22,343 nt of DNA from a virus: positions 1 to 22,343 of the IMG/VR virus record IMGVR_UViG_3300036719_001457; one strand, 5' to 3'. A model generated the notes under the pieces. The model was not told where the DNA came from. It ran no database searches and saw only the letters and a program-made list of their open reading frames with translations. The translations under genes were made by a program, and so were the position numbers. Positions 194-20,509 of the stretch are shown here, piece by piece (position 1 is the first letter of the stretch; the number at the start of each line of letters is the position of its first letter).

Positions 194-421
194 ATGAAAT
201 GCCCCCACACATTCTTTGCCGAAGCACGGCTCGCACGCGACTCGCTTAGTGCTTTGGGTGCGGCAAACACAAACGATTTGCGGGAGTATCCGGGCGCACG
301 GGGTGAGCGTGCCCACAAGCGGTTGCACCGTGAAATTGCTAAAGTGCTGAAGGGGCGGCTGTCCAAGACTGGAGCCGAACTTGCAGTGGGTATGAACGAA
401 GCGCGGAGCCGTAAACACTAA
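194..421 (+). CDS. Small basic protein with capsid-targeting-like N-terminus
   Basis: This 75-residue protein starts at ATG 194, four bases after the preceding stop. A GTG at 179 in the same frame overlaps the upstream gene and would add five residues; neither start has a strong Shine-Dalgarno sequence, so translational coupling is likely. The N-terminus MKCPHTFFAEARLA resembles the T4 internal-protein leader MKTYQEFIAEA, with FAE in place of the usual (L/I)xE prohead-protease site. The rest is Arg/Lys-rich with several His and looks helical. The stop codon TAA is part of a CTAAATA promoter box. No known domain is recognised. A small internal head protein is a guess. Confidence 0.6.
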   Translation: MKCPHTFFAEARLARDSLSALGAANTNDLREYPGARGERAHKRLHREIAKVLKGRLSKTGAELAVGMNEARSRKH

Positions 422-424
422 ATA
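418..424 (+). promoter_or_regulatory. Putative late promoter box CTAAATA
   Basis: CTAAATA overlaps the stop codon of the preceding gene and lies 31 bases before the ATG at 449. A ribosome site (aggag) lies between box and start. The same heptamer recurs at similar spacing before several other genes of the window and resembles the T4 late promoter TATAAATA. Confidence 0.6.
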
Positions 425-448
425 ATAAAAACAGGAGAACAACCCCAC

Positions 449-1390
449 ATGAACCCCATCCACAACCCCTTTTCTCGTGACGAACACCCTGATCTGACCG
501 CTGCCATTAACGGCGTGGTGAACGGGCAACCCCGACCTGTAGAGGAAGACATCCAAACCCCTGCTCGTGAGCGGCAGATGAAGCGCAAGATGAAGGCAGC
601 AGAACACGGCAGCGACGCAGCGTCTAGCCGCTACATTCAGGCATGGGACGCAGAAGCCAAGTCTCCTGACACCAACCCCAAGGCAGCAAAGGCACTTCGT
701 GCGGCTGGAGAGCGTTTCAACGCAGCAGTAAAAAAGCGAAATGCACTGTACACCACTCAACGCAAGGAAGGCAGCAGCAAAAAGACATACGGTGTGGGCG
801 GCAAGGTGGTGCGTGAATCCGCGTCTCCACAAGGCGGTGACAAAAAGCCGTTCAACCCATTCAACCCCACGCTGGGCGATCTGCTCCGCTCAAAGCAACA
901 GGACAAAAAAGCACCAAAGGGCAAGCCTGTAAAGGAAGCCGTGACACCTGCTCAACAAAAGGTGTTTGCCCGTGAACGGGAGCGGATGCTGAACGCACTC
1001 AACAACCCCAAGCAGAAACTCTCACCCACCGAGCGTGAAGCAGTGCTGGCTCGTGGGGCGCGCAATGCTGCTGCCGAAACCCGCAAAGGTGCGGTGTCAC
1101 CCACTGGTGAGAAGTCACCCATCCATTCCGCTGCCAAGGCACACCACGAGTACGCTCGTCGTGAAAGCAAGAAACTGGATGCAATAGCCAAGCGCAAGGT
1201 ACAGGAAGGCGCACAACTAGACGAACGCATCATTGACGAAGTGGATTTCTTTCAAGCGTCCAAGAATCTGCTTACAGGCAAAGGCTTCAAGACCAACCGT
1301 GAGGTGAGTGGCGCACGAGTAAACGCCAACATGGCAGCAATGCAGCGTCGTAAAGCACGAGCAGCCAAGACAGCCAAGAAAACTAAATAA
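449..1390 (+). CDS. Lys/Arg-rich modular protein with QTPARE and YGVGGK motifs
   Basis: A 313-residue, strongly basic, probably largely helical and disordered protein. Start ATG 449 follows acaggag. Residues 32-44 (VEEDIQTPARERQ) and about 112-121 (TYGVGGKVV) form a pair of motifs that also occurs, 65-75 residues apart, in the proteins at 1411, 14958 and 20509(-). The middle has a NPFNPTLGDLLRSK patch; the tail has ERIIDEVDFFQAS, which includes an (I)xE site, followed by a very basic end (QRRKARAAKTAKKTK). No enzyme motif or membrane segment is visible. Basic composition and the company of capsid-targeting-like proteins suggest a DNA-associated virion protein, but this is inference. Another possibility is a nucleic-acid-binding scaffold component. 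Confidence 0.75.
   Translation: MNPIHNPFSRDEHPDLTAAINGVVNGQPRPVEEDIQTPARERQMKRKMKAAEHGSDAASSRYIQAWDAEAKSPDTNPKAAKALRAAGERFNAAVKKRNALYTTQRKEGSSKKTYGVGGKVVRESASPQGGDKKPFNPFNPTLGDLLRSKQQDKKAPKGKPVKEAVTPAQQKVFARERERMLNALNNPKQKLSPTEREAVLARGARNAAAETRKGAVSPTGEKSPIHSAAKAHHEYARRESKKLDAIAKRKVQEGAQLDERIIDEVDFFQASKNLLTGKGFKTNREVSGARVNANMAAMQRRKARAAKTAKKTK
1383..1389 (+). promoter_or_regulatory. Putative late promoter box CTAAATA
   Basis: CTAAATA overlaps the stop of the preceding gene and lies 28 bases before ATG 1411. It is followed by acagcacaaggagataca, a leader with a good ribosome site. The leader resembles that of the paralogous gene at 20509(-), where the box-to-start distance is 27. Confidence 0.6.
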
Positions 1391-1410
1391 CAGCACAAGG
1401 AGATACACTA

Positions 1411-1971
1411 ATGGCACGATTCAACACCAACACATTCCGTTCGCTCAACGAGAGCATTGCACGCATCCAAAACCCAATTGCTGCACTGGACGAGGCTATG
1501 GAGTACACCAGTATTCTTGAAGCAGTAATTCTTGACCTTTGCGAAGCACTAGACCTTGATCCACAGGCACTACTAGAAGACTTGCAGACTCCTGAACGAG
1601 ATTACGAAATGTACTCAAGCATCCGTAAAAAGAAACAGGCAGCGGATAAGCATAGACTCAAGGCAAAAGACACATCAACGCCTGCACGCAAGCGAGCAGC
1701 GGTTGCACATAAACTCAAGGCAAAAGACGCAGCAGCGGATGCACGCAAACTCAAGGCAACAGACGCAGCAGAAAAGGCTGACAAAGAGAATGTGTACGGC
1801 ACGGGTGGCAAAGTGGTGGATACTCGTACAGCGTACAATCAGCGAGTAAATCGTAAATGGACTGCCGCAGACAAGAAAGAGTGGGCACGAACTCACTACG
1901 GTAATACGGGGCGAGAAATAGAGTACGATGACAGCAGGAGCACCATCCCTTACAGGAATTACAAACGGTAA
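1411..1971 (+). CDS. Putative internal head protein, paralogue of the 20509(-) gene
   Basis: A 186-residue protein. Start ATG 1411 follows aaggag. The N-terminus reads NTFRSLNE at residues 7-14, an aromatic/basic peptide ending in LNE that fits the T4 capsid-targeting and gp21 cleavage pattern. Residues 15-60 form a helical domain nearly the same as in the gene at 20509(-): SIARIQNP, an ALDEAMEY stretch, then ALLEDLQTPER. A Lys/Ala-rich repeat section follows (about residues 75-125), then VYGTGGKVV near 128-136. The tail is charged and Tyr-rich. It is followed by a strong terminator. No enzymatic motif is seen. The DNA identity with the 20509(-) copy points to recent duplication or gene conversion. 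The role as packaged protein is inferred from the N-terminus only. Confidence 0.75.
   Translation: MARFNTNTFRSLNESIARIQNPIAALDEAMEYTSILEAVILDLCEALDLDPQALLEDLQTPERDYEMYSSIRKKKQAADKHRLKAKDTSTPARKRAAVAHKLKAKDAAADARKLKATDAAEKADKENVYGTGGKVVDTRTAYNQRVNRKWTAADKKEWARTHYGNTGREIEYDDSRSTIPYRNYKR
1428..1476 (+). repeat. 49-base block repeated inverted at 20447-20495
   Basis: The block encodes NTFRSLNESIARIQNP near the start of the 1411 gene. By eye it is identical, base for base, to the reverse complement of 20447-20495, inside the start of the paralogous leftward gene. Sequence on both sides diverges at synonymous and non-synonymous sites. Confidence 0.85.
1656..1764 (+). repeat. Degenerate Lys-Ala repeats within the coding region
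   Basis: A 16-base unit (actcaaggcaaaagac) starts at 1656 and 1713 and, with one change, at 1749. It encodes LKAKD/LKATD followed by Ala/Arg-rich spacers. It probably makes a charged helix, and repeat slippage could change its length. Confidence 0.7.
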
Positions 1972-1994
1972 ACCCAAAATCAATTTGTAAAAAA

Positions 1995-2023: not shown

Positions 2024-2025
2024 GC

Positions 2026-2032: not shown

Positions 2033-2053
2033 ATTGCTATAACGGAGAAGCAC

Positions 2054-3005: not shown

Positions 3006-3776
3006 ATGAAAGACTATTTCCAATTTATCCGTAATCTACACGAGCGTCTAGGCATTTACGATAACCCTAATGCTTTTGACCCAGCGAGTGCTGATCCTGA
3101 ATCTCCTCGTGCTCGTAAACTAACACACGAATTTGATCGCAGGATGCGTGCAGCAGGCACAAGCAAGGGGTACAAGCAAGCCCTGTCCGCAGCGTGGGCA
3201 GGAATTCGTGCCAAGCGTAAAGCAGCAGCACAAAAGCCGTCTCGTACTCCGTATCCGTGGGGCAACAAGACCAGCATTGCAGGCTGGTGGAATCCCAAAC
3301 TGGAAAACTACACATTCTCGCACAGCAACGGCTACCATGTAACACAATTGGTAAGAAACCCGTCTCGTTTCGGTATTAGTCAGCAAGAATTGTATGAAGG
3401 ATTAAAAAAAGAGGGATACTACTATAATCAAAGGGGTTTGGGTTGGTACGACAAAAACGGAGACGAGCACATGTACACTGCTGAACGAGTCAAAGAGCGA
3501 ATAGAAAAAGAGGACATGGATTTGGCTTACGAAGTCCAGCGTGTTGCGTACATAAAGGGTTGGCTCAAAGTGTACAGCGGTGGAGAAAAAACACCGTCTC
3601 TTGAAGGCATTGATCGCAGTTCCATTAAAGCCGCACTTCGTGAAATACTATCCGTGCGACCAGAAATAATAGATTTGGGCGGCAGCGTAGAAATCTTTGA
3701 AGTAGGCTTGGTACGAAACACACAGAAACTCCGCTGGCTGCGTGGCAAAGAAATACTAGATTACCTGAACTCGTAA
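3006..3776 (+). CDS. Putative virion-associated protein with WWNPK / NPSRFGI module
   Basis: A 256-residue protein. ATG 3006 is chosen because it follows ctaaagga and because the N-terminus MKDYFQFIRNLHERLG fits the capsid-targeting pattern (LHE at 11-13); an upstream GTG at 2958 lies inside the preceding gene. Residues 15-70 are basic and helical (RRMRAAGTSKGYKQALSAAW). Around 82-118 lies AGWWNPKLENYTF followed by HVTQLVRNPSRFGI, a pattern I associate with small repeated modules in aquatic phage proteins. The second half has mixed alpha/beta character (LKVYSGGEKTPSLEGIDR, then GSVEIFEVGLVRNTQKLRWLRG). Its stop overlaps the next start (TAATG), indicating coupling. No catalytic motif is recognised. 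Confidence 0.8.
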   Translation: MKDYFQFIRNLHERLGIYDNPNAFDPASADPESPRARKLTHEFDRRMRAAGTSKGYKQALSAAWAGIRAKRKAAAQKPSRTPYPWGNKTSIAGWWNPKLENYTFSHSNGYHVTQLVRNPSRFGISQQELYEGLKKEGYYYNQRGLGWYDKNGDEHMYTAERVKERIEKEDMDLAYEVQRVAYIKGWLKVYSGGEKTPSLEGIDRSSIKAALREILSVRPEIIDLGGSVEIFEVGLVRNTQKLRWLRGKEILDYLNS

Positions 3777-4261
3777 TGCACCACGATTTCCGCTCATATC
3801 TGACTGAACTGTACGACAAGCCGTTTCGGGTTGTGAAAAAGGTGGAAGCCCCCGATCACGCTGCGTACCACTACACAGACGGTGACGAAGCCGATCCCAA
3901 AGCAGACTACTTGGTTATAAACTTTGGGTACATTCAGCCACAAGACGAAGGTTGGGACATGGATTTTACACGCGGTGGTTCTACTGCACTCACAGGTGAA
4001 GGCAAGGCTACACAGGTGTTTGCAACAGTCATGGACGGGTTCAAACGATTTGTTAAACGCTACGCTCCAAAAACGGTTTCATTCACCGCAGCCAAATCAG
4101 AAGTAAACGCAAAAACATATTCGTACAGTTCAGGCTCGCGTGTAAAACTGTACAACTCGCTTATCAAGCGATACGCTGCACAAGCAGGATACCGTCTTGA
4201 GTCAACAAAATCCTTGGGCATGGGGCGTGAACTGTTTGTGTTGGAGCGAATTGCCCAATGA
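3776..4261 (+). CDS. Unknown protein with capsid-targeting-like N-terminus; GNAT-like pattern
   Basis: A 161-residue protein starting at ATG 3776, which shares a base with the previous stop. The N-terminus MHHDFRSYLTELYDK contains LTE at 9-11, matching the T4 prohead-protease rule. The body has YLVINFGYI, then DMDFTRGGSTALTGEG, VFATVMDGFKRFVKRY, TVSFTAAKSE, and SGSRVKLYNSLIKRYAAQAGYRL. The order strand, loop, helix, strand, then a helix ending in AGYRL is reminiscent of acetyltransferase-like (GNAT) folds, but I see no sure acetyl-CoA loop. The helix-strand-helix core is echoed in the next gene, suggesting an adjacent divergent paralogue. Translation is coupled on both sides (TAATG, ATGA). 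Confidence 0.8.
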   Translation: MHHDFRSYLTELYDKPFRVVKKVEAPDHAAYHYTDGDEADPKADYLVINFGYIQPQDEGWDMDFTRGGSTALTGEGKATQVFATVMDGFKRFVKRYAPKTVSFTAAKSEVNAKTYSYSSGSRVKLYNSLIKRYAAQAGYRLESTKSLGMGRELFVLERIAQ

Positions 4262-5208
4262 GCCGTCTACAGTTCAAATCGTATCTGACCGAAGCGTTTA
4301 CTCGCCCTGCACCGTGGCTAGAACTCACCAAGCCCACAATATGGGGTCGGGTTGGCAAGTACGAAGACTTGATGCACCACAGGTACTTTGCAGTTAGCCG
4401 CAACGAAGGCTTGGACACCGAGATTGGTGTTGACAAGGGAAACGCAGGCAGAAAATACCACAGCGGCTACGGTGTTCCTGTACAAAGCGGTGAGCAGATG
4501 GACAAGTGGGTACAGGAAAAGGTTTCGCCGCTTCTGATTCCCCAAGGCATGTTATACTTGCCCAGTATTCAAGCCCACATTTTCCGTGTGTCGTTTGGGC
4601 ACGCATTTGTGTGGGGCGAGAACAAGGGCAGCGAAATTCGTCCACTCGTGACAGCAGACGGTAAACGGATATACGAATTGTCTTTTGCCCGTCTAGCGTT
4701 TCCTGTCCATTTGGACAAGATAAGCGGACACTACTACTGGTCAGACGAACACATTGCGGACTGGAACACTAGTAACGATTTTGTGGACAACGATGTGGGC
4801 GACCTGAACCCACGCCAGTCCATCGGGGTGTTTGGCACGGTGATAGAGATTGCCAAAGCGTTTACCCGCCGACCTGATTTTGGTGGGCTACTGTTTGGTC
4901 GCAAGCAGGACGCTAAATCGTCTCGTGGGCGCATCTACGGTGGGCTAGCCCAACGGGTGGGTGCGTCTATTGGGCTAAAGTCCTACGAATTCCCACAGGG
5001 TGATCGCCATTTCAGCGATATGGGCGGGCCGAGCACAGACACGGTGCTGGTGGTGAAAAGCAAAAGTATTTACGACGAGTGTGTGGCTATTGCAGACGAA
5101 GCGTCCCGAGCACAACGGGGCGTGGACTCTATGGTTGCAGGGCTACAAGCGTATGGTGCGTCGCTGAACAAGCCTAAATATAAACCCATACAACAAATCA
5201 AATATTAA
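4258..5208 (+). CDS. Unknown protein with capsid-targeting-like N-terminus, paralogous core to upstream gene
   Basis: A 316-residue protein starting at ATG 4258 with a four-base ATGA overlap. The N-terminus MSRLQFKSYLTEAFTRP has LTE at 10-12, the cleanest T4-like leader in the window. Its central part (HLDKISGHYYWSDEHIADWN, then a SIGVFGTVIEIAKAF helix and SSRGRIYGGLAQRVGASIGL near 221-240) aligns by eye with the VFATVMDGFKRF and SRVKLYNSLIKRY segments of the preceding gene. No catalytic motif is sure. The last 35 bases contain CTAAATA at 5174. Probably a packaged or virion-linked protein; function unknown. Confidence 0.8.
   Translation: MSRLQFKSYLTEAFTRPAPWLELTKPTIWGRVGKYEDLMHHRYFAVSRNEGLDTEIGVDKGNAGRKYHSGYGVPVQSGEQMDKWVQEKVSPLLIPQGMLYLPSIQAHIFRVSFGHAFVWGENKGSEIRPLVTADGKRIYELSFARLAFPVHLDKISGHYYWSDEHIADWNTSNDFVDNDVGDLNPRQSIGVFGTVIEIAKAFTRRPDFGGLLFGRKQDAKSSRGRIYGGLAQRVGASIGLKSYEFPQGDRHFSDMGGPSTDTVLVVKSKSIYDECVAIADEASRAQRGVDSMVAGLQAYGASLNKPKYKPIQQIKY
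5174..5180 (+). promoter_or_regulatory. CTAAATA box inside the 3' end of the preceding gene
   Basis: CTAAATA with a following TAAA lies 112 bases before the next start (5286), further than the usual 20-37. Together with the AATAAATA at 5235 it could form a tandem promoter with a long leader, or it may be chance. Confidence 0.3.
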
Positions 5209-6595: not shown

Positions 6596-8455
6596 ATGAG
6601 CGACCAATACAAGAGTCTACGCACAGTAATCCTTGAACTTCAAGCAGCACCCGTAAAAACAGGGCACAAAGAGCGAGAAGTGTGGAAGACCGCTAGTGGT
6701 CACTACGGTGCAAAGAATCCATCTGGAACCGTGGACTACTTTGATGACGAGCAAAAAGCAAAGGTGTACTCAAAAGGACAGGGACGCGGTGGCAGCGTGG
6801 ATCACGGCACAGTTGACTCTTCTCGGGAAGTGTCACTAGATCAAGACGGGTACGCAAAAGACAAGACTGTGGATCAAAAGCAAAAACCACAGGCACAGGC
6901 TGCTGAAGCACCTGCTCCCGCTGCTGCATCTCAAGCCAAACCACAAGCAGCACCACAACAAGGCAAGCCCGCAGATCAGCCCACCAAAACCGCTAAAGAT
7001 CAACCACAGCCTGAAGAAGAGCATCCTGATGTAGCCGCAGAAGACCCACAAACAGTTTTTGATGCAGCGTTTCGTGAAGACCCTGTGGGCAGCGGAAAAC
7101 TAAAACCTGATATTCGCAAGGCTAATGTGGTAGCCAATGCTATCAAAACCGAAACCTTTGCTGGCCCACGAGACGACAGCGAATCCGTATTCGGTGACGC
7201 AAACGCAGAAAAACAATTCACCGATGAAATGAACCACGCAGCACTTGCTGCTCTGCGTGGGCAAAAAGTGATTGACTTTGAGTTGTGTGACAAGATGTTT
7301 TCTCAAGTTGGTTTCTGCTACGACCGCAAGGGTGAAAAGACCACAAAGGGTATTGTGCGTAAAGAGATGCCGCAATTCTCTTCACAGGTTGATCCCAAGA
7401 AGCCTGATTCGCCTGCATTCAAGGCTCTCATGGCAGGCAAGGGATACACTAGTCCTGAACAAGTAACTCCCGAAGACTTGAAACTAGAAGTCAACATGGA
7501 GAAGGCGTATCAGGAAGCACTCAAAGACGCAGGCTACGAGATCAACGATCAGGAAGTGGATGCCACTTCACTCAAGCCTATTCAGGGTGAACTACTAGGC
7601 TCCAAAGTTGCAGCCATGTACGGCACACTCGTAGCCGCACAGCAAGACCCACAAAACTACGGCAAGGCTGCTGCTCGCCTGCTTGAACCCATCTATGTAA
7701 GCGACGGCTATGTGATTGACGGGCATCACCGTTGGGCAGCACAATGTGCAGTAGATATTGCAAACGGTCAAGGCACAAATGCCAAGATGAGAACCCGAAC
7801 CATTACCAAGGGTGGCAAGGCAGTACCTATTGATGAAATTATCCAGTTCTCAAACAAGTTCCAACAGGATGCAGGACTAATGAGCCAAAGCCGCTCGGGT
7901 GCAACTGTGGGTGAGAAGCCAAAGGAAGAAAAGAAGGAGAAGCCCATGAAAGAAGGATTCGTAGACCCCCGTTCGTCTCGTGAGCGTTTGGTTGAGTCGC
8001 TGCTTGAAGCCGTAAAGGTAAAGCGTGATCGCAACCCACAACTAGGAACCATTGGCTACGGTGTAGACACCGATGACCCTGCACGATTCGTGGGATCAAA
8101 CAAACCACTCAAGACTCGCAAGACTGATGCAATGGGCAACCTGCTTCCCAAGCCAAGCGCAAAGGGGTGGAAGGCAAGCGCAGCAGCCACAGGTAATGCC
8201 ATTGAGATGGCACAGCAACTCATTGCCACCATGAACATCAAGCCCGCAGGCACAAAGTTTGAAGTGTACGGAGAGAAAAACGGTAAGCCGTATACACTCA
8301 AGGTCAAGAAGATCAAGAAGATGGGCATAGATACTTACGAGACTGCTGGTAGCCGAGAGGTTGAACTCAAAGCAGCAGGCACAGGGCTACAGGTTCTAGA
8401 CAAGCGTACCCGCAAAATTGTACTAGATCGTGGCAACGACATGTTGTGGGACTAA
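6596..8455 (+). CDS. Large modular protein with ParB-like domain
   Basis: A 619-residue protein, ATG 6596. The N-terminus MSDQYKSLRTVILELQ has ILE at 12-14, a capsid-targeting-like leader. Residues 95-145 are a Pro/Ala/Gln-rich linker. Residues about 150-420 form a domain whose clearest motif is YVIDGHHRWAAQ at about 369-380, the signature of the ParB/sulfiredoxin-like fold (nuclease or nucleotide-binding), preceded by SLKPIQGELLGSK. Four further modules follow: KEGFVDPRSSRERLVESLLEAVKVKRDR with a second LxE (LLE), a TIGYGVDTDD segment, an AIEMAQQLIATMNIKPAGTK helix, and a beta-rich C-terminus with ELKAAGTGLQVLDKRT. The ParB-like fold is recognised from the motif alone; activity is not established. 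It is likely a virion or packaged protein. Confidence 0.85.
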   Translation: MSDQYKSLRTVILELQAAPVKTGHKEREVWKTASGHYGAKNPSGTVDYFDDEQKAKVYSKGQGRGGSVDHGTVDSSREVSLDQDGYAKDKTVDQKQKPQAQAAEAPAPAAASQAKPQAAPQQGKPADQPTKTAKDQPQPEEEHPDVAAEDPQTVFDAAFREDPVGSGKLKPDIRKANVVANAIKTETFAGPRDDSESVFGDANAEKQFTDEMNHAALAALRGQKVIDFELCDKMFSQVGFCYDRKGEKTTKGIVRKEMPQFSSQVDPKKPDSPAFKALMAGKGYTSPEQVTPEDLKLEVNMEKAYQEALKDAGYEINDQEVDATSLKPIQGELLGSKVAAMYGTLVAAQQDPQNYGKAAARLLEPIYVSDGYVIDGHHRWAAQCAVDIANGQGTNAKMRTRTITKGGKAVPIDEIIQFSNKFQQDAGLMSQSRSGATVGEKPKEEKKEKPMKEGFVDPRSSRERLVESLLEAVKVKRDRNPQLGTIGYGVDTDDPARFVGSNKPLKTRKTDAMGNLLPKPSAKGWKASAAATGNAIEMAQQLIATMNIKPAGTKFEVYGEKNGKPYTLKVKKIKKMGIDTYETAGSREVELKAAGTGLQVLDKRTRKIVLDRGNDMLWD

Positions 8456-12008: not shown

Positions 12009-13292
12009 GTGGCTAAATCTATAAAGGATACACGACGAAGCAAAACTATTGTAGTTGCTTTCGGTCGTTTTCAGCCACCAACTTCGGGACACCAACTCCT
12101 TTTCAACAAGGTGGTAGACACGGCACACAAAATGGGAGCAGATCACGCGATTGGGTTTAGTCGCAGTCACGATCCCAAAAAGAATCCGTTGTCGCCATCT
12201 CGTAAATATTTTTGGTTGAAACGCCTATTCCCGGGAGTACATTTTTTAAACTCTGAAAAGATAAAGACCCCATTTGATCTGCTGTACACGCTTGCAGAGA
12301 TGGGGTACGAGCATGTGGTGTTTGTGGGTGGCGAAGATCGCAGCGAAGACTACGATGACAAAAACATCCGTAAACTAATGAAGCACTCTGATCCTAAACG
12401 CCGACTAAAACTAAAGCGTTACGATTTCGTCATGGCAGGCAAGCGTGATCCCAAAGCAACAGGTGTGCAGGGCATGAGTGCCAGCAAGATGCGAGCCGCT
12501 GCCGAACAAGACAACAAGAAATCGTTTGCACAAGGAATGCCGTCTGCTGCGAGTCGTGACGATACTGTTCGCCTGTTTGATGAACTACAGCGTGGAATGC
12601 GTAAGGGCATGAAAGAAGAGTTTGACTTTACTGAACTGTACCATACCGCTGCTGCCAATATTATTGAAAGCGACAAGAACAAGCGTCGCCCACCCACACC
12701 CGGTCAGACAGGTGGATTCTCCAAGCACAACACACAGTTCCCAACCCCACCGTGCAAGATTGACGAAGACTTGGGTGATTGGTTCAAGCAGAAGTGGGTA
12801 AACATTGGTGGCAAGCGTGATCCAAAAACTGGAGAGTACCCCCCGTGTGGTCGCAAGAGTGCCAGCGAAGGCGGTTCGTACCCCAAGTGCCGACCTATGC
12901 GTAAGGTGGGCAAGACTCCTGAAACTGTGGGCGAGATGTCACCCAAGGAACGCAAGGCTGCTGTGTCACAAAAGCGACGAGCAGAATCCAAAGCGTCCAA
13001 GAGCGGCAAGGGCAACAAGCCTGTAATGACCAGCCACAAGTCTTTAGAAGAGGACTCGTCGTGCCCACGCACTCCGCAAAACAATGCTGAAAACACATGG
13101 GTAGCAGTAAAGGGCGGCAAGGTATATTTTTATATTGGTCGGTGCAGCCAGCCGTATCAAATATTCGGCAACGACGCAGTTTCAGCCATCCGTTACGGGG
13201 AAGAAATCTATGTAACACTCCGTAACGGCAAAACCGCTATTTACCGAATAAACAACGGGCGAACGGTTTACGGTCCCGTCCGCATGACCTGA
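12009..13292 (+). CDS. Cytidylyltransferase-like protein with Cys-rich and beta modules
   Basis: A 427-residue protein with a GTG start at 12009, chosen for the strong gggaggtgat site. Residues 13-165 form a nucleotidyltransferase domain: VVAFGRFQPPTSGHQLLF at 15-32 has the G-x-x-x-x-x-(H/T)-x-G-H signature of NMN adenylyl/cytidylyltransferases (the usual first His is Thr25), VFVGGEDRSEDYDD, and MSASKMR (156-162), the S-x-S-x-x-R-like motif. A second region has (I)xE sites (ANIIE, CKIDE) and the module DLGDWFKQKWVNIGGKRD with a PPCGRKSASEGG...YPKCRPM Cys pair, which I recall from aquatic phage proteins. A beta-rich tail ends in RINNGRTVYGPV. NAD synthesis or nucleotide modification could be the role; this is inferred. 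Confidence 0.85.
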   Translation: MAKSIKDTRRSKTIVVAFGRFQPPTSGHQLLFNKVVDTAHKMGADHAIGFSRSHDPKKNPLSPSRKYFWLKRLFPGVHFLNSEKIKTPFDLLYTLAEMGYEHVVFVGGEDRSEDYDDKNIRKLMKHSDPKRRLKLKRYDFVMAGKRDPKATGVQGMSASKMRAAAEQDNKKSFAQGMPSAASRDDTVRLFDELQRGMRKGMKEEFDFTELYHTAAANIIESDKNKRRPPTPGQTGGFSKHNTQFPTPPCKIDEDLGDWFKQKWVNIGGKRDPKTGEYPPCGRKSASEGGSYPKCRPMRKVGKTPETVGEMSPKERKAAVSQKRRAESKASKSGKGNKPVMTSHKSLEEDSSCPRTPQNNAENTWVAVKGGKVYFYIGRCSQPYQIFGNDAVSAIRYGEEIYVTLRNGKTAIYRINNGRTVYGPVRMT

Positions 13293-13346: not shown

Positions 13347-14951
13347 ATGGACTCTGCTATCAAATCAAAACTTCAAACCCTGTTGCGCCTTGGTCTAGTG
13401 TCACAAAACAATGTGCGTCGTGCTATGACCATGTTCCAAGACCCAGAGAAGTACAGCAAGAGTCCTGCTTACCGCACTCTCATGCAGGAACTAATGGTGG
13501 ATGTGGTGGACAAGATTGTGAACAACCGTGCCATGTACACCGCACTACGCTCCAGCCTGACCAAAGACAAGGGCGTAAAGGAAGCAGACGAAACCATTGC
13601 TGCCACCACACAAAAGATTGGTGAAAGCGTTGAAACAGATCGTACCACAACCCTGCTGCGTAGTGGACTGGTTGACAAGACCCAAATCACCGCTGCTCGC
13701 AAAGCACTAAAGTCCAAGAGCAATCTCAAGCAAATGAGCATGGGCAAGGTGTACCGTGAAATGATGATTAATATGCTAGACAGCCTTGTAAAGAAGATTA
13801 CAGGTAGCCCTGCCCTGTTCAACGCTTTCAAGTTCACTATGGGCAAGGAAGGCAAGATTGAAGAGGCGTTTGACGGTGGAGACACAGACATTATTGCGCT
13901 GTTTGATCTGCACGAAGACGCACAAGAAATCCTTGAAGCCAACAAGCCCACCAATCCGTCTCTGTGGTCAAAAGCCAAGAGCATGGCAAGAAGCAAGTTT
14001 GATGTGTACCCGTCTGCGTATGCCAACGGATGGGCAGTCAAGTGGTACAACTCCAAGGGTGGCGGTTGGAAGAGCGTGAGCGAAGGCAAGACTTTCTTCC
14101 AGTTTGCAAATGATCTTGAAGAAGCCCTGACTCCTGCTCGTAAGGCAGTGATTGATCGTGAACGCAAGAAGGCTTCCGAAACCATGAATCGTGCTAGCAC
14201 TCCTACACCTGAACGCAACAAGGCATACGCTCGTGGCTCACGAGTCAACTACCTTGAACTCAAGGGACTAGCAAACAAGTCTGACAAACAAGGCAGTGAT
14301 TATCAGATCAACAAGCGTGAACACGCCAAGTGGCGTAAGACTGAAAAGAGCATGAAAGAAGAAACCCAAAGACTTGATGAGGTATCTCCACCAGACATGG
14401 AGCACATGACTGGTTCCAAGAACGCCAAGGCTTCGTTCACCAAGCAGTACGGCAAGCGTGGCAAGAGCGTGATGTACGCCACTGCATGGAAACTCCACAA
14501 CAAGAACAAGAAGAAGCGCGAAGTCAAGGAAGAGATTGAACAGATTGACGAGTTGAGCAAGGCGACCAAGGACTCGTATGTTGCCAAGCGTGGCTCACAA
14601 CTCTCGTCCATGATGTACGGTTCTGGAAAGCACTACGCTTCGCTCACAGGCAGACAGCAAAAGAATGCCGTGAAGGGCATCAAGCGAGCCACAGGTGTCA
14701 AGGAAGAAGCCGAGCAGATTGACGAGTTGAGCAAAAAGACCCTTGCCTCGTATGTGCAAAAGGCACACGATTCCCAATCAGAAAAAGAGTTTCTGAAGGG
14801 ACACAGCATGGGCAAAAAGTATCAGGCAGCAAGAGAAGCAGAGAAAAGAGGCGTGTCTACCCCACCAAGCAAAAAGACACCACTAGACAAAAAGTACAAA
14901 AATCGTGAGATGGGAATCGGTCGCGCACTAAAGCGTCTCCAAAAGGACTGA
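13347..14951 (+). CDS. Large modular Lys-rich protein, possible prohead-protease-processed polyprotein
   Basis: A 534-residue protein; ATG 13347 follows acaaggaa. Residues 10-76 and 102-170 are two diverged copies of one helical domain (TLLRLGLVSQNNVRRAM and TLLRSGLVDKTQITAAR), each followed by an IxE site (IGE 91-93, IEE 171-173). A module with DVYPSAYANGWAVKWY follows, then NDLEEALTPAR. LDE (about 343-345), IDE (400-402) and IDE (458-460) come before basic modules at 57-58 residue spacing: one with MEHMTGSKNAKASFTKQYG and YATAWK, one with SKATKDSYVAKRGSQ, one with SKKTLASYVQKAHDSQ. Each IDE is embedded in KEE-x-EQIDELSK. The tail is NREMGIGRALKRLQ. Modules like these recur in aquatic phage proteins. 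Function unknown; see findings. Confidence 0.85.
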   Translation: MDSAIKSKLQTLLRLGLVSQNNVRRAMTMFQDPEKYSKSPAYRTLMQELMVDVVDKIVNNRAMYTALRSSLTKDKGVKEADETIAATTQKIGESVETDRTTTLLRSGLVDKTQITAARKALKSKSNLKQMSMGKVYREMMINMLDSLVKKITGSPALFNAFKFTMGKEGKIEEAFDGGDTDIIALFDLHEDAQEILEANKPTNPSLWSKAKSMARSKFDVYPSAYANGWAVKWYNSKGGGWKSVSEGKTFFQFANDLEEALTPARKAVIDRERKKASETMNRASTPTPERNKAYARGSRVNYLELKGLANKSDKQGSDYQINKREHAKWRKTEKSMKEETQRLDEVSPPDMEHMTGSKNAKASFTKQYGKRGKSVMYATAWKLHNKNKKKREVKEEIEQIDELSKATKDSYVAKRGSQLSSMMYGSGKHYASLTGRQQKNAVKGIKRATGVKEEAEQIDELSKKTLASYVQKAHDSQSEKEFLKGHSMGKKYQAAREAEKRGVSTPPSKKTPLDKKYKNREMGIGRALKRLQKD

Positions 14952-14957: not shown

Positions 14958-16622
14958 ATGATTAAGAAGCAAGGCAACAAGTTTGTAGTAACGAACAAGG
15001 CAGGCACTAAAGTATTGGGAACACATCCGTCCAAGGAAAAGGCACAGAAGCAACTCGCAGCAATTGAAATATCAAAGGCAAAACACATGCACGAAAACAA
15101 ATCATTCAAGTCGTTCCGTAGCACTCTTAACGAGAGCGAGTACAGCGAAGTTCTAACAGGTTACGGCAACCGCTCTGCTCACAAGGACGATGCAGGTTTG
15201 CACCACCTACAGTCTGCGGGTGCTCTTGCTGGTATTAATGCCATGCTTGCCACCATCAGCAAGGGCACTTACCTTGATCCCAACGAAGCGTTCCTCAAGA
15301 TGAAGGTGCGTCTCAATGTGGTGCAACTAGACTTCCCGTGGAAGCCCCGTTCATGGGACGGTGGCGTGGGTTCGTTTGATATTCCTGTGGTGCAGTTTGG
15401 TCGCGTTGACGGCTACGACGCACAGACAGGACAGATTCGCTTTGACGGCAAGGCTAACCCCACAGGCGGCTACACCGAACTAAATCTGCATGTTGAGGTT
15501 GGACTAAACGCGGATTCGCTGTACACCGTGAGTGCCAAACTAACTCCTGCCGTGCCTGTAGCGGAAGAGGTTGAAGTTGCAGAAGACTACCAGACTCCTG
15601 CTCGTGAACGGGAAATGGATCGCAAAATAGCCAAACACGATGATGCTGCTGATAGTGCGTACAGAACTAGAATGACCAAATACGGCAAAGTTGCTGATCG
15701 TGCCTCTAAATCAGAAGACAAGCACGACAAGGCAATTGCTCGTCTTCTCAAGCGTTCCCAAAAAGAACAAGAGTCGTCCCGTACTTACGGTCGTAGCGGC
15801 AAACTTGTAAAGCGTGGTAGCCGTGCAGAGGTAAAGGAAGAGATGGAGCAGATTGACGAAGCAGGCGCAGCCAAACTGGCTCGTATGGGATACGCATACG
15901 ACCGCGCACGAGTCGGTGCTCGTGGTGTTCTGAATCCCGAGCGCAAAAAGCAAATGGGTGATGCGTACTACAAGCAGCGTGAAAAGGTAGAAGCCAACAA
16001 AGCCAAGCGAGTTGCAGCAGGCAAATTTGACAAGGGGCGTGAACTAGAAGCCCTCCACAAGAAGTACGAAATTCGTCGTGCTAAAAATACCGTAAAGGAA
16101 GCACTCATTGGCGGTCAGAAGAAACTAGACCTGAACAAGAACAAGCGTCTTGACTCACAAGACTTTGCCATGCTTCGTGCCAAGAAAAAGTCGGTAAAAG
16201 AAGAAGCCCTTGTCGGCGGTCAGAAGAAACTAGACCTGAACAAGAACAAGCGTCTTGACTCACAAGACTTTGCCATGCTTCGTGCCAAGAAGAAGGCTAT
16301 GAGCGAAGCCAAGAAGCCCATGATTAAGATTGGTCTAAACCCCAACAAGAAAATTGGTTACGAGGTTGCTTCAATCGGAGCAGGTGGCAAGAAGACTGTA
16401 GAGAAGTCTGTTGACTACACCATGCCCCATGTGAGGCGCGACACCACCAAGAAGGGTGTAAACGAAGCGAAAATGAAAACATGGAGTCCCCGCTTGGACA
16501 GACTAATGGCAAATCGTGACGCGATTCGCAGCAGACCCAAGAAGAGCATCCTGACCCAAAAAGTACAGGACGGCAAGAAGATTGGTGCTGCTCGCCCAAT
16601 AGCCAAGTACGAGGGCAAGTGA
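14958..16622 (+). CDS. Large modular protein with LNE leader, QTPARE/YG-x-x-GK and EF-hand-like repeats
   Basis: A 554-residue protein; ATG 14958 lies 6 bases after the previous stop with a weak, distant aagga. The first 40 residues (KFVVTNKAGTKVLGTHPSKE) form a small module. ATG 15087 (Met44) begins HENKSFKSFRSTLNESEYSE, a typical capsid-targeting-like leader with LNE, and could be a second start. A beta-rich domain follows at about 55-200 (VRLNVVQLDFPWKPRSWDGG). The shared motif pair AEDYQTPAREREM (about 208-220) and TYGRSGKLV (about 274-283) precedes KEEMEQIDE (293-301). Two exact 34-35-residue repeats at 385-453 carry DLNKNKRLDSQD, an EF-hand/dockerin-like calcium loop. The tail is basic. 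Probably a packaged or virion protein. Confidence 0.85.
   Translation: MIKKQGNKFVVTNKAGTKVLGTHPSKEKAQKQLAAIEISKAKHMHENKSFKSFRSTLNESEYSEVLTGYGNRSAHKDDAGLHHLQSAGALAGINAMLATISKGTYLDPNEAFLKMKVRLNVVQLDFPWKPRSWDGGVGSFDIPVVQFGRVDGYDAQTGQIRFDGKANPTGGYTELNLHVEVGLNADSLYTVSAKLTPAVPVAEEVEVAEDYQTPAREREMDRKIAKHDDAADSAYRTRMTKYGKVADRASKSEDKHDKAIARLLKRSQKEQESSRTYGRSGKLVKRGSRAEVKEEMEQIDEAGAAKLARMGYAYDRARVGARGVLNPERKKQMGDAYYKQREKVEANKAKRVAAGKFDKGRELEALHKKYEIRRAKNTVKEALIGGQKKLDLNKNKRLDSQDFAMLRAKKKSVKEEALVGGQKKLDLNKNKRLDSQDFAMLRAKKKAMSEAKKPMIKIGLNPNKKIGYEVASIGAGGKKTVEKSVDYTMPHVRRDTTKKGVNEAKMKTWSPRLDRLMANRDAIRSRPKKSILTQKVQDGKKIGAARPIAKYEGK
16110..16291 (+). repeat. Two 77-base identical direct repeats (EF-hand-like)
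   Basis: Bases 16110-16186 and 16215-16291 are identical by eye, with a 105-base period, and encode QKKLDLNKNKRLDSQDF and ending AMLRAKK. In the 12-residue loop D-x-N-x-N-x-x-L-D-x-x-D the positions 1, 3, 5, 9 and 12 are oxygen ligands as in EF-hand and dockerin calcium loops. Two such repeats is the dockerin layout. Identity at synonymous sites implies recent duplication or gene conversion. Confidence 0.85.
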
Positions 16623-16801
16623 AAGGTTTTTGGGAATACATCCGTCTGCGTCCAAACAAACCACTAGTGTTTGAGGACATCTTTATAGATCAGGGAGTTG
16701 AACTCCAATCACCTGTGCCCGGTTCAAATGTTTCCGATGTGGACTTGACACCCAAAGAAAAGCAGAACAAGTTCAAGAAAAAGCAAGCCCTGAAGAAATA
16801 A
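16619..16801 (+). CDS. Small Lys-rich-tail protein (60 residues)
   Basis: GTG start at 16619 overlaps the previous TGA by four bases and sits four bases after a gaggg site. The N-terminus KGFWEYIRLRPNKPLVFEDI is aromatic and basic, the tail KEKQNKFKKKQALKK is very basic. No domain recognised. The overlap and the ribosome site support translation. A small packaged or DNA-associated protein is possible. Confidence 0.65.
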   Translation: MKGFWEYIRLRPNKPLVFEDIFIDQGVELQSPVPGSNVSDVDLTPKEKQNKFKKKQALKK

Positions 16802-17211: not shown

Positions 17212-17427
17212 ATGAAGCGACTCAAACGGTTTGCACAGTTCATGGAACAGGACGGTGGCTTGCCCACCTCCGCTCCCACAAATATAACAGGGGCAGATCG
17301 TATTGCAGGCACAGGCAGCGATATTCCTCCCGTATCTCCCAAGAAGCGGTTTAATATTTTAAAGAGGAAGACCGCTAAACTCATAAATAATAAGGTGATT
17401 GAAAACACTGATTTAGAAAGGAAGTGA
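17212..17427 (+). CDS. Small protein with MKRLKRFAQFME leader
   Basis: A 71-residue protein; ATG 17212 after a good taggag site. The N-terminus MKRLKRFAQFMEQDGG resembles the capsid-targeting-like leaders, but the protease-like site is FME rather than (L/I)xE. PTNITGADRIAGTGSDIPPV (22-41) is a Gly/Pro-rich stretch, followed by a basic helix (KKRFNILKRKTAKLINNK). Function unknown. Confidence 0.65.
   Translation: MKRLKRFAQFMEQDGGLPTSAPTNITGADRIAGTGSDIPPVSPKKRFNILKRKTAKLINNKVIENTDLERK
17382..17389 (+). promoter_or_regulatory. Weak late-promoter-like CATAAATA
   Basis: CATAAATA lies 48 bases before ATG 17430, inside the end of the small gene. It differs from the T4 late consensus at the first base. 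Inside coding sequence and at long spacing, so uncertain. Confidence 0.3.
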
Positions 17428-17429
17428 AT

Positions 17430-17867
17430 ATGTTTACACCTGAACTACTTTCGTTGGTTGGCGGCGGCGCAGCAGGATTCCTGTTTCGCTACATGGCACA
17501 AAAGTCGCAAGACCAAAAAGAACTGTTCCAACAGATGATGGCTGCAAACGCGCAGACCACCAGTAACCAAGATAAAGCCGCAGAGCGTGTTCCCTACGAT
17601 GTGGGGCGTGGCGTTCGTCAAGTAATCGTGCTGTCCATACTGTTCGGCACTTTCTTGGCTCCGTTCATCCTGCCGTTCTTTGGTCTGCCCACTTTTGTGG
17701 AAGTAGACGCAACCACTCCTGAAGGGCTGTTTGGGCTGATTCCACAAAGCACCAAGAAGTTTTTCGTGGAAATCAACGGCTACCTGTTCACCTCTGAAAA
17801 CCGTCAAATCTTGTTAAGCATCGTAGGATTCTATTTTGGTTCTGCTGCTGCGTCCAACAAGTCATAA
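17430..17867 (+). CDS. Holin-like membrane protein (three-helix pattern)
   Basis: A 145-residue protein. ATG 17430 is preferred because aggaag lies five bases upstream; an in-frame GTG at 17424 is possible. Likely membrane helices are LLSLVGGGAAGFLFRYMA (6-23), VIVLSILFGTFLAPFILPFF (65-84) and ILLSIVGFYFGSAAAS (127-142), with a polar Gln-rich segment (25-55) between the first two. The C-terminal GFYFGSAAAS is a pattern I associate with holin-like proteins of aquatic phages and gene-transfer agents. The following lipoprotein gene supports a lysis role. It could also be another small membrane protein. Confidence 0.75.
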   Translation: MFTPELLSLVGGGAAGFLFRYMAQKSQDQKELFQQMMAANAQTTSNQDKAAERVPYDVGRGVRQVIVLSILFGTFLAPFILPFFGLPTFVEVDATTPEGLFGLIPQSTKKFFVEINGYLFTSENRQILLSIVGFYFGSAAASNKS

Positions 17868-17877: not shown

Positions 17878-18165
17878 ATGAAAGCCGTATACACAATTCT
17901 GCTTGGACTACTGCTGACTGCCTGCAACACCGTTCCACAAATCGTTCCTGATTCCAGTGGCGACAGCGTGATTATGAAGCGATTGGATCACGAAATTCAG
18001 CGTGGTGACAGCGGAAACTCTTGGGGATGGGTGCTATGGTATTTGCCCATCGTGCTGATTGCGTTTGCTTGGGCGTGGAAGGAATGGGTTCGCCCGTCCA
18101 TCAATGCTCTTGAAAACGAAGACATTGACACCATCAAGAAGTACGACAACACACCCAAGCCTTAA
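17878..18165 (+). CDS. Small lipoprotein with transmembrane segment, spanin-like
   Basis: A 95-residue protein; ATG 17878 after aaggag. Residues 1-16 are a lipoprotein signal (ILLGLLLTAC, Cys16 in a perfect L-T-A-C lipobox; Asn at +2 suggests outer-membrane sorting). A second hydrophobic Trp-rich segment, WGWVLWYLPIVLIAFAWAW at 49-67, is followed by a charged 28-residue tail. Lipidated N-terminus plus a later membrane helix is the layout of a unimolecular spanin (as in phage T1 gp11), but the 33-residue link is short to cross the periplasm. Location right after a holin-like gene supports a lysis function. Its stop overlaps the stop of the leftward resolvase gene. Confidence 0.75.
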   Translation: MKAVYTILLGLLLTACNTVPQIVPDSSGDSVIMKRLDHEIQRGDSGNSWGWVLWYLPIVLIAFAWAWKEWVRPSINALENEDIDTIKKYDNTPKP

Positions 18166-18740: not shown

Positions 18741-18745
18741 AACAG

Positions 18746-18752: not shown

Positions 18753-18761
18753 GGAACCTGA

Positions 18762-18768
18762 CTAAATA
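18762..18768 (+). promoter_or_regulatory. Putative late promoter box CTAAATA
   Basis: CTAAATA lies 27 bases before ATG 18789, followed by cggtaaaggagg, a strong ribosome site. It is back-to-back with the minus-strand box at 18746-18752. Confidence 0.65.
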
Positions 18769-18788
18769 CGGTAAAGGAGGATTCAATA

Positions 18789-19004
18789 ATGATTCCAGAA
18801 AACAATGCAGAAAATTACAATGAAACTGTGCTGATCCCTCTGTTGGAAAAGAAGGTACACGCTCTGACTAGCAGCGTGATTCTAGCCGAAGCCAAACTAG
18901 AGATTGCCAACAAGGAAAAGGCTGAACTACAGAAGCAGTTGGACGCAGCACAGGCAGCAGCACAGTCTGTGCCTGTGACTGATGTGCTAGACGAAGGGGA
19001 CTAA
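18789..19004 (+). CDS. Small coiled-coil protein
   Basis: A 71-residue acidic protein; ATG 18789 after a near-perfect aaaggagg. Residues 12-58 form a likely coiled coil (VLIPLLEKKVHALTSSVILA, then KLEIANKEKAELQKQLDAAQ), followed by an Ala/Gln-rich stretch and an acidic tail (VTDVLDEGD). Only rightward gene in this leftward region and with its own promoter box. Its stop precedes the end of the protease gene by 12 bases. Function unknown; a small scaffold or adaptor is possible. Confidence 0.8.
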   Translation: MIPENNAENYNETVLIPLLEKKVHALTSSVILAEAKLEIANKEKAELQKQLDAAQAAAQSVPVTDVLDEGD

Positions 19005-19016
19005 ACCCCATCGCAT

Positions 19017-19781
19017 CTATAACGGGTTTCCTGATAACTCTAGAACTACTGCTCGCACCCACTCCGCTACAAGGTCTACCCGAGTAGCGGAGTTTTCATA
19101 TATGGTAGAGTCTTTGGTGGCTAGTGAGGAAATGATTCCAACCAGCACGCCCCTGCTGTTCAGGACTGCGCCGCCTGAATCGCCAAAATACAGGGTTCCG
19201 TTGATTGGCAGCATTTTGAATACTGTGGGTTCTTCAATCAGGGTTCCGTAGTACCAAAACACATCAGGATTGCTACGGCGTTTGTAGCCTCCACCAAAAC
19301 CAATCAGAGTAAGCGACTCGCCTTGAATGTATCGGTTACTTTTGCCCATGATGGGAACAGGAGTAACAGGGCAGTTACGCTCAAGCAGCCCAACTGCTGC
19401 GTCTTGGAACAAGCGATCCCCAATTTTGTATTTGGGGTGCATACGGTAGTCCACAATCTTGTACGATTCGCACCCCACCACGAACAGGTCAGCGTCACCG
19501 TCTTCCATGCAATGCCCTGCGGTAATGAAAACATTGGGTGCAATAAGTACTGCACTACCAATTTCAGAGCCATCGGCTTTGGCAAGCATACCAACTGCCA
19601 ATTCCTCTGTTTGCTCGTCCAGTAGGGAAAAGCCGCCCATGAACCACGGAAGGTGTGTAGCGGGAATCCCTACTGGAGTTTTTTCCTGTGGTGTGTCGTA
19701 TACCGACACCGATGCCTCGTCACATGCCCCGAAGAGTAGTGAGAGGGCCAGCAGAAGAGATGGAACATAGCCTCTCTGCAT
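19017..19781 (-). CDS. Trypsin-like serine protease lipoprotein
   Basis: A 254-residue protein read leftward. ATG 19781 gives a lipoprotein signal (VPSLLLALSLLFGAC, Cys20); an in-frame GTG at 19808 would add nine residues. The lipobox has Phe at -3, less typical than Leu. The chymotrypsin-fold triad is His90 (ITAGHC), Asp127 (QDAAVGLL) and Ser202 (YFGDSGGAVL). Asp21 right after the lipidated Cys is the +2 Asp that in E. coli retains lipoproteins in the inner membrane. The protein would face the periplasm. A phage-made membrane-tethered protease may protect against superinfection, act in lysis or alter host envelope proteins; which is unknown. A CTAGATA box lies 5 bases before the start. Confident about the fold. 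Confidence 0.85.
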   Translation of the reverse strand: MQRGYVPSLLLALSLLFGACDEASVSVYDTPQEKTPVGIPATHLPWFMGGFSLLDEQTEELAVGMLAKADGSEIGSAVLIAPNVFITAGHCMEDGDADLFVVGCESYKIVDYRMHPKYKIGDRLFQDAAVGLLERNCPVTPVPIMGKSNRYIQGESLTLIGFGGGYKRRSNPDVFWYYGTLIEEPTVFKMLPINGTLYFGDSGGAVLNSRGVLVGIISSLATKDSTIYENSATRVDLVAEWVRAVVLELSGNPL

Positions 19782-19786
19782 ACAAA

Positions 19787-19793
19787 TATCTAG
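19787..19793 (-). promoter_or_regulatory. CTAGATA box 5 bases before protease start
   Basis: On the minus strand CTAGATA is followed by tttgt and then ATG (19781), the same spacing as before the resolvase gene. The variant base (G at position 4) is shared with the box at 9871. Confidence 0.4.
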
Positions 19794-19840
19794 CCCACCC
19801 ACCAACACAAAAATGTTGGAATTTCTTGAAGGTTTGTGCT

Positions 19841-19864
19841 AAAAGAAAAACCCCCTTGCGGGGG
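19841..19864 (-). terminator. Rho-independent terminator, identical to that at 2000-2023
   Basis: Read on the minus strand: CCCCC, GCAA loop, GGGGG, then tttttctttt. It lies 33 bases after the stop of the paralogous gene (19898) and is identical over 24 bases to the plus-strand terminator after the 1411 gene. Confidence 0.9.
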
Positions 19865-19897
19865 TTTGGTGTGTGGGATCGGTTTTCAGCCTTCCAT

Positions 19898-20509
19898 TCA
19901 GTCACCGTACTCTGGGCCACGCCCGCCTGTGTAGGGACCACGCCGATGTGCTGCGTCTTCATAGCCTTGCATCTGTGCGTGATGATCCCGATCTCCTGCC
20001 CGACTCCTGTGCCATGCTTCGCTTTCTCTTTTCTGCCGTGCGTGTCGTTCAGCATCGGCTCGCTTTTTGGCACCCATATCCTGTTTGCGCTTCATGGCTC
20101 GCTTGTGGTCTTCTGATCCCTTGCGGACAGGCTTGCCGCCCTTGCCGTAAACGGTCTTTGACTTTTGTTCCTTGCGATGACGATCCTCCGCTGATTGAAG
20201 TTCCGCGTCAGCCTTTACTTGTCTTTCCCTTGCTGCTTTGCCTTTGGTCTGGTTACGGAGGCGAGTCGCCCAGTCTCCTGCACGGCGCGACAGTTTCCGC
20301 AGATTCTTTTCGCTTTCCGCTTCGCGTTCTGGTGTCTGGATGTCTTCCAGCAGGGCATTAGGATCAAGTTCTAGTTCTTCACATAGAGCCAACAGCACTG
20401 TTTCTAGCAGTTCGTTGTACTCCATAGCCTCATCCAAAGCGGCTTGTGGGTTTTGGATGCGTGCAATGCTCTCGTTGAGCGAACGGAATGTGTTGTGGTT
20501 GGTTCTCAT
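19898..20509 (-). CDS. Putative internal head protein, paralogue of the 1411 gene
   Basis: A 203-residue protein read leftward; ATG 20509 follows tataggag. NTFRSLNE at 6-13 is the same leader as in the 1411 gene, with LNE at 11-13. Residues 14-60 match that gene closely, including ALLEDIQTPERE. The middle is Arg/Lys/Glu-rich, with VYGKGGKPVRKGSED at 120-134, and the tail is Arg/His/Gly-rich (HHAQMQGYEDAAHRRGPYTG). The paralogues diverge strongly after residue 70. A 49-base stretch and the downstream terminator are identical at DNA level. A packaged head protein is inferred from the leader. Confidence 0.8.
   Translation of the reverse strand: MRTNHNTFRSLNESIARIQNPQAALDEAMEYNELLETVLLALCEELELDPNALLEDIQTPEREAESEKNLRKLSRRAGDWATRLRNQTKGKAARERQVKADAELQSAEDRHRKEQKSKTVYGKGGKPVRKGSEDHKRAMKRKQDMGAKKRADAERHARQKRESEAWHRSRAGDRDHHAQMQGYEDAAHRRGPYTGGRGPEYGD
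20447..20495 (-). repeat. 49-base block, inverted copy of 1428-1476
   Basis: Encodes NTFRSLNESIARIQNP in the 20509(-) gene. It is identical on the minus strand to 1428-1476 on the plus strand. Two inverted copies about 19 kb apart could support recombination inverting the region between. Confidence 0.85.

Follow-up and report, generated by a model that had tools for sequence, protein, structure and literature searches.

A probable T4-type capsid-targeting leader on candidate head cargo of a phage fragment and its relatives

Why do so many proteins encoded on one short phage fragment begin with much the same peptide? The question is raised by IMG/VR virus record IMGVR_UViG_3300036719_001457, whose complete 22,343 bases with 29 called genes were analyzed here (the window). 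An earlier note on this DNA had proposed that many of its proteins share a leader ending in (L/I)xE, of the type directing internal proteins into the capsid of phage T4, and that a large set of cargo proteins is packaged in this way. According to passages of a review (PMC9026906), targeting of the T4 internal protein IPIII mainly involves residues 4 and 7, whereas 8 and 10 matter for its processing by gp21, which cuts after L/I-x-E. The T4-type interpretation is supported by the T4 register of the leaders, the locking of their glutamate to residue 10, their confinement to one gene block in a relative encoding a gp21-type protease, and their presence on enzymes detected by mass spectrometry (MS) in virions of isolates. 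We therefore give a probability of roughly 0.83 to the reading that these leaders are capsid-targeting sequences (CTS) like that of T4 IPIII, which the prohead protease removes from a large and partly enzymatic cargo.

Ten N-termini of the window read as described in the earlier note, eight of them ending in (L/I)xE and those of genes 194 and 17212 (genes being named here by their start) having F instead. Three leaders conform to the strict T4-type motif defined below: MHHDFRSYLTE (3776-3808, + strand, E at residue 11; GNAT-fold cargo gene 3776-4261), MSRLQFKSYLTE (4258-4293, +, residue 12; cargo gene 4258-5208, a divergent member of the 3776 family) and MNSFIPFLAE (10749-10778, +, residue 10), which is in the T4 IPIII register. 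We distinguish as class II the leaders MARFNTNTFRSLNE (1411-1452, +, residue 14; gene 1411-1971), MHENKSFKSFRSTLNE (15087-15134, +, residue 16) and MRTNHNTFRSLNE (20471-20509, − strand, residue 13; gene 19898-20509, a paralogue of 1411). Further leaders are MKDYFQFIRNLHE (3006-3044, +, residue 13; gene 3006-3776) and MSDQYKSLRTVILE (6596-6637, +, residue 14; gene 6596-8455). The near-matches are MKCPHTFFAE (194-223, +; FAE with E at residue 10; 75-residue gene 194-421) and MKRLKRFAQFME (17212-17247, +; FME with E at residue 12; 71-residue gene 17212-17427). The gene at 16619-16801 (+), MKGFWEYIRLRPNKPLVFE, absent from the earlier note's list, resembles T4 IPI (MKTFKEFTSTTTPVSTITE): its residues 4-8 match the aromatic half of the leader, and a glutamate stands at 19.

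A near-identity DNA search of a phage collection with the window gave no match. Its close relatives are several IMG/VR contigs, the most useful being G004 (147,410 bases, 169 called genes, 87% coding), whose DUF6267 protein is 81% identical to that of the window. Persistence of the leaders in such relatives was judged by eye, and the environmental contigs are partly near-identical, hence not independent. The leader of 10749 persists in G001-G004, that of 17212 in the same four as FxxF(M/T/V)E, that of 3776 in G001, G003 and G004, and that of 6596 in these three as I(L/F)E. Those of 1411, 3006 and 4258 are kept in G001, the site of 3006 differing in G004 (FLKE at residue 10), and the leader of 194 appears in G001 as HxFFAEARxARD (gene start MKDPHRFFAEAR). 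For 15087, an internal start is plausible from the sequence because the orthologues in G001, G003 and L009 are called from the leader, in-frame stops lie upstream of it in G001 and L009, and AAAGG stands 8 nt before the ATG of the window.

How far the motif exceeds expectation depends on its definition. Counted against shuffled sequences, as the earlier note had suggested, the loose motif ((L/I)xE with E at residues 8-18) is in excess in the window, in 7 of 29 genes against 2.3 ± 1.4, yet the excess is mild and weak alone, with the motif present in 2103 of 20018 body windows (~10%; binomial p 0.028). Since the review places IPIII targeting and processing at the residues named above, we tested a strict motif in the T4 register: [FYW] at E-6, a hydrophobic residue or His at E-3, [LIMF] at E-2 and E at residue 9-17. 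Its positions were taken from the review, and its residue classes were set with the leaders of G004 and of cyanophage S-CREM2 known; the other contigs were scanned once the motif was fixed, 78 of the 80 being new at that point. In the window, it is found in three genes (3776, 4258, 10749) against 0.11 in shuffles and 0.21 in body windows, and a relaxed form in six (adding 1411, 6596 and 20509 on the − strand) against 0.53 and 0.64, respectively; 3006, 15087, 17212 and 194 fit the E-6/E-3 register only loosely. Within G004, six of the 27 genes of the syntenic block carry the strict motif and none of the 142 elsewhere (Fisher 1e-5), so that the equal frequency in other genes that would tell against packaging was not seen.

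Across the 80 contigs, 132 of 1397 genes have the strict motif against 11.3 expected, although the contigs were chosen by DUF6267 and most motif genes in them are DUF6267; 57 of 1319 remain without this family, again against 11.3. Homologues counted singly over-count the motif, body positions 31-39 for instance giving 52 genes of only five families, and we therefore relied on blastp families. By families, the motif occurs at residues 9-17 in 19 of 458, whereas fourteen body windows gave 1 to 9; the E lies exactly at residue 10 in 17 families, as against an average of 0.52 and at most 3 at single body positions 20-149. The leader is thus common to non-homologous proteins; strict hits at residues 12-17 may be due to chance. 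Applied to T4 as a control (100 kb, 126 called genes), the strict motif finds IPII and IPIII, both with E10, plus one other gene. Two further candidates were tried and dropped. One, the broad aromatic motif [FYW].{1,4}[LIMF].E within residues 1-22, proved too loose, showing no excess in G004 or S-CREM2 as wholes, despite more hits than expected in the block of G004 (8 vs 3.0), in the window (7 vs 2.2) and in S-SZBM1 (23 vs 12.4). A C-terminal copy of the leader, an idea from SSCSM1_93, occurred in 43 of 1919 genes against 21.7 expected, the excess consisting largely of repeated homologues.

The leader is also well conserved. All 78 contig copies of DUF6267 carry it in relaxed form under a filter requiring E at P1 and allowing L, I, M or F at P3, which none failed. 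P3 is L in 64 copies and I in 14, with nine codons in use, both Glu codons occur at P1, and eight different residues are found at P2; this codon variety at P3 and P1 argues that selection acts on the peptide. An alignment of DUF6267 proteins from 24 of the 80 loci shows E10 in every sequence, followed by a segment of variable length before the domain begins. The 3776 family was compared over ten members, which are 17-64% identical to the protein of the window; of its nine invariant columns, four are the leader residues M, F, L and E, and the leader therefore outlives its cargo. Furthermore, leaders appear and disappear as whole units. In S-SZBM1, DSL-LC02, Syn1, P-HM1 and S-PM2, the annotated DUF6267 protein starts directly at the domain, and in the first two of these the adjoining nucleotidyltransferase bears the leader. 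The window has it on DUF6267 and none on its nucleotidyltransferase, a cytidylyltransferase/NMNAT-like gene (12009-13292, +) whose homologues in several isolates are leader-bearing. S-CREM2 and S-SCSM1 have it on the nucleotidyltransferase, no DUF6267 gene having been found there by pattern. DUF6267 of DLP_6 has a leader, and Melnitz-3 shows clear leaders on two consecutive genes, the second being DUF6267, followed by two genes with variants.

Virion proteomes of cyanophage isolates connect the leader with detected proteins. In the S-CREM2 virion list (Table 3, PMC10665884), the S-adenosylmethionine (SAM) hydrolase (SAM lyase), the APH-like kinase, the cytidylyltransferase and gp136 have strict leaders with E10. 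The detected gp13 has a relaxed leader, gp15 a variant and gp12 ("Cas9") a leader-like stretch ending at E25; gp12 to gp15 are consecutive genes, all four detected by MS. The annotated Cas9 (L093:7704-10313) matched nothing in Pfam; its sole hit was phrog_3561, a family of unknown function. The cytidylyltransferase of S-SZBM1, detected according to the portions consulted of PMC9146016, starts with the strict leader MRFRQFIIE, and the leaderless DUF6267 next to it is absent from the 30 rows of Table 1 considered. Likewise, the NMNAT of S-SCSM1, detected according to record notes and parts of PMC9602691, starts with the strict MKSFLQFLKE. Pooling the three genomes, six of ten proteins with a strict leader at E9-11 were detected, compared with 126 of 606 others (p 0.0086).

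These tests differ in their gene sets. That for S-CREM2 covers all 219 annotated coding sequences (CDS) and the 52 proteins of Table 3; those for S-SZBM1 and S-SCSM1 use our own calls, 162 and 235 genes compared with 218 and 282 annotated CDS. For S-SZBM1, 33 loci were taken, of which 32 matched a call: 30 rows of Table 1 in PMC9146016, plus _61, _69 and _72 out of at least six other loci named in the text, _185, _196 and _210 being left out. For S-SCSM1, 48 CDS are marked as virion proteins in the record, the paper giving 45 (PMC9602691). The parts of the S-CREM1 report at hand (PMC9964418) gave no usable virion list, and it was not used. The authors of the S-CREM2 study left it undecided whether these enzymes belong to the virion or had failed to be separated from it in purification (section 19 of PMC10665884), and sections 18 and 19 of that paper mention no targeting signal for them. 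Two similar small proteins, S-SZBM1_191 (L099:22311-22628, 105 residues) and SSCSM1_30 (L128:44215-44535, 106 residues), have the perfect leaders MKSFKSFLSE and MKTFKQFMSE and were undetected by MS; we predict them to be head proteins. By eye, the virion or leader proteins SSCSM1_90 (L127:2458-3792), L048:252-1715 and L076:562-1770 share a pattern like D..V...G.SLK and perhaps have a nuclease fold, as far as this pattern goes; family searches with them matched unknown families or none.

The earlier note had proposed to look for the prohead protease outside the window, and it was found in two relatives: a gp21-type Peptidase_S77 protease is encoded by G004 (E 5e-42) and G006 (E 2e-35), and was not found in the other nine of the 11 records searched, mostly fragments. 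By analogy with T4, the gp23-like head proteins of relatives may be cut with the same specificity in their N-terminal regions, which contain MLVE/AP in G004, LLTE/AP in S-CREM2, ILTE/AAP in S-SZBM1 and FLAE/AP in S-SCSM1 (the slash marking the site). During head assembly, each leader would dock its protein into the scaffold core, the gp21-type protease would cut after (L/I)xE and free the mature protein inside the head, and the cargo protein would be ejected together with the DNA.

Much of this cargo looks enzymatic. The DUF6267 part of 10749 (10779-11966, +; Pfam E 5.4e-100) was modeled with a mean predicted local distance difference test score (pLDDT) of 78.6, residues 1-22 being below 50. 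All 50 listed VIA-align rows are RNA/DNA ligases (best Z 8.1 over 179 residues at a root-mean-square deviation (rmsd) of 3.5). Foldseek was weak, with a DNA ligase as best match (E 0.012) and most of its 50 listed rows being low-probability carbonic anhydrases; because of this, the fold call rests on VIA-align and motifs. Invariant in 24 sequences are K64-W65-D66-G67, E371-G372-F373-V374, K385, D388 and R389, of which KxDG and the downstream EGxV and Kx are what we take to be ligase motifs. The nucleotidyltransferase fold of the model and these motifs support DUF6267 as a putative member of the ATP-dependent RNA/DNA ligase superfamily, bearing out the earlier suggestion of a ligase-like cargo protein. 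For 3776 (pLDDT 79.2), the modeled structure is a GNAT fold: by title, acetyltransferases make up nearly all of the 50 VIA-align rows listed (best Z 9.7, 116 residues, rmsd 2.9), the best structural matches begin after the leader, and Foldseek led to spermidine acetyltransferases (best E 1.1e-3). A ParB-like protein had been proposed for 6596; the proposal has behind it the sequence VIDGHHRWAA, which we assume to be ParB-like, Pfam, NCBIfam and PDB-sequence searches being negative and the only match being phrog_2859 of unknown function. A protein search with 6596 gave no match either, PADLOC on ten window proteins found nothing, and NCBIfam gave a single sub-threshold match, for gene 12009.

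Among related contigs, a DxDxT (HAD-type) gene near DUF6267 bears the leader in 11 of 11, some of these contigs being near-identical, and the two proteins tested both match phrog_415, polynucleotide kinase. Three leader-bearing nucleotidyltransferases were tested as well, two being fused to a zeta-toxin/AAA_33 P-loop domain and one to a RimK ATP-grasp domain.

Two genes of the window, 13347-14951 (+, net charge +38) and 14958-16622 (+, net charge +48), look, from their sequence, like strings of small basic modules on linkers fitting the protease specificity. The first has (L/I)DE sites at 14373-14381, 14529-14552 and 14703-14726, the second the linker EEMEQIDE at 15837-15860. In these genes and their relatives, acidic KEExEQ(I/L)DE linkers number 29 in 20 of 1967 genes, compared with 0.4 in shuffles; with P3 left free, it is I or L in 28 of 35 and V in three. 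The segments between linkers are nearly all basic, and similar ones turn up at different places. One of LSKATKDSYVAKRG type stands behind a linker in 13347 of the window, whereas in G002, G003 and G004 it does so in the 14958 orthologues; in the distant contig G006, the KFDVYPSAYANGW segment of 13347 is found after a linker. Linkers of this kind also occur in two virion proteins of S-SCSM1, namely KEEVENVDE (P3 being V, not L/I) and KEEVELDE. The same protease could cut both window proteins at these linkers into basic internal peptides. In a protein search, 14958 matched 10 phage records, and these only through its first 40-70 residues. Four otherwise different proteins have a basic QTP...YGxGGKxV module in common, which lies at 539-814 (+) in gene 449-1390, with blastp matches to module genes of G002 and G004; 1564-1863 (+) in 1411 (G002 module gene); 15585-15818 (+) in 14958, directly before the linker; and 20114-20380 (−) in 19898-20509 (G004 module gene). 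It follows a linker in G001 and in G002, there EETEIDE.

Several observations weigh against the CTS reading. The loose motif is only weakly enriched, the broad aromatic one shows no excess in G004 (15 vs 12.2) or S-CREM2 (15 vs 14.6) as wholes, the strict one misses T4 IPI and Alt, and its UvsX-like family (2 of 29 members) is probably a chance hit. The S-CREM2 N-termini were known before the strict motif was fixed. The MS association is modest genome by genome (p 0.012 for S-CREM2, 0.49 for S-SZBM1 and 0.37 for S-SCSM1); four of the ten leader proteins were undetected, namely S-CREM2 gp30 (334 residues) and three small proteins of 105-165 residues, and most detected S-CREM2 hypothetical proteins have no leader. 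Finally, no gp21-type protease was found among the annotated and family-searched genes of the window, its gene presumably lying outside the 22-kb record, and the virion data come from cyanophage isolates rather than from this phage or its near relatives.

Among the alternatives, the one that survives best, improbable as it is, takes the leader proteins as parts of the prohead core or scaffold, degraded and lost like T4 gp67/gp68 instead of being delivered. It would account for the five [LI]xE within the first 56 residues of both 1411 and 20509, and gp21 also cuts core proteins whose fragments mostly leave the head, as described in passages of PMC9026906. Degraded core proteins would not be expected as leader-bearing enzymes in the lists of purified virions of isolates, nor with bodies of ligase-like and acetyltransferase-like fold or with SAM lyase and weak kinase matches. 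We consider it still less probable that the shared N-terminus is another signal of co-expressed genes, such as localization, turnover or translation-initiation context. The leader genes do cluster in one operon-like block; however, those of S-CREM2 sit in other gene contexts, P3 and P1 vary in codon, and the register is that of T4 IPIII. Chance, by which a common (L/I)xE and selectable start codons would yield the motif and which the mild excess of the loose motif and the missing excess of the broad one would suit, is largely refuted by the residue-10 lock in 17 families, the 0 of 142 genes outside the G004 block and a leader conserved where bodies diverge.

Taken as CTS, the leaders agree with those of T4 IPII/IPIII in their ten N-terminal residues with aromatics at 4 and 7, L/I at 8 and E at 10, and the relatives have a gp21-type Peptidase_S77 protease. 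Unlike in T4, the motif is found here on about 17 families, several with enzyme-like folds, and some window leaders are in another register (FRSLNE, VILE, FME). To our knowledge, phiKZ and SPN3US use another cleavage motif and do not have a short leader of the T4 type. As is proposed here, a gp21-related protease cleaves many of their head proteins after a short motif ending in E, with repeated propeptide sites (passages of PMC9026906). T4 Alt, an ADP-ribosyltransferase that travels in the head and, once injected, modifies proteins of the host (parts of PMC5512222), resembles the proposed cargo as a head-carried enzyme; unlike Alt, the cargo has GNAT-like and ligase-like folds, and family searches of window proteins found no ADP-ribosyltransferase family. 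Also close to the window are the virion enzymes of S-CREM2, S-SZBM1 and S-SCSM1, which include cytidylyltransferase/NMNAT homologues, the detected ones bearing the leader. Many ip genes of T-even phages have been found through the CTS signal (PMC12373910, in part). Within open-licence full texts, capsid targeting sequence together with cyanophage occurs only in the T4 review; the titles and abstract starts listed by broader searches describe no such signal for aquatic T4-like phages, and the same literature yielded no paper on DUF6267.

Other genes of the window include a ribonucleotide reductase fragment (20613-22343, −) with a B12-dependent (class II) insertion domain, truncated by the record end, and a trypsin-like serine protease (19017-19808, −; Trypsin_2 E 2.8e-10) with a lipobox-like N-terminus (LLFGACDEA) and homologues in relatives. 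A membrane-protein-like gene (17430-17867, +) followed by a lipoprotein-like one (17878-18165, +; LLLTACNT), both kept in relatives, are perhaps lysis genes.

The finding suggests that this phage and its aquatic relatives carry an enzyme kit into the cell along with their DNA. As a tentative and rather doubtful extension, aquatic T4-like phages might carry, preformed in the head, an end-healing and sealing kit for nucleic acids (DUF6267 ligase, polynucleotide-kinase-type HAD phosphatase, zeta-toxin/polynucleotide kinase-like P-loop kinase and nucleotidyltransferase) and several acetyltransferase-like protein modifiers, each with its T4-type leader, together with a modular precursor cut by the prohead protease at KEExEQ(I/L)DE linkers into basic head peptides. 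If the CTS reading is true, head cargo of aquatic T4-like phages could be recognized from sequence by means of a signal known mainly from the internal proteins of T4. The leader offers an answer to a question left open in section 19 of PMC10665884, namely whether cyanophage virions hold their kinase, cytidylyltransferase and SAM hydrolase as genuine cargo or as material not separated in purification. It also singles out a small number of enzymes that may be active in the opening minutes of an infection, ahead of phage gene expression.

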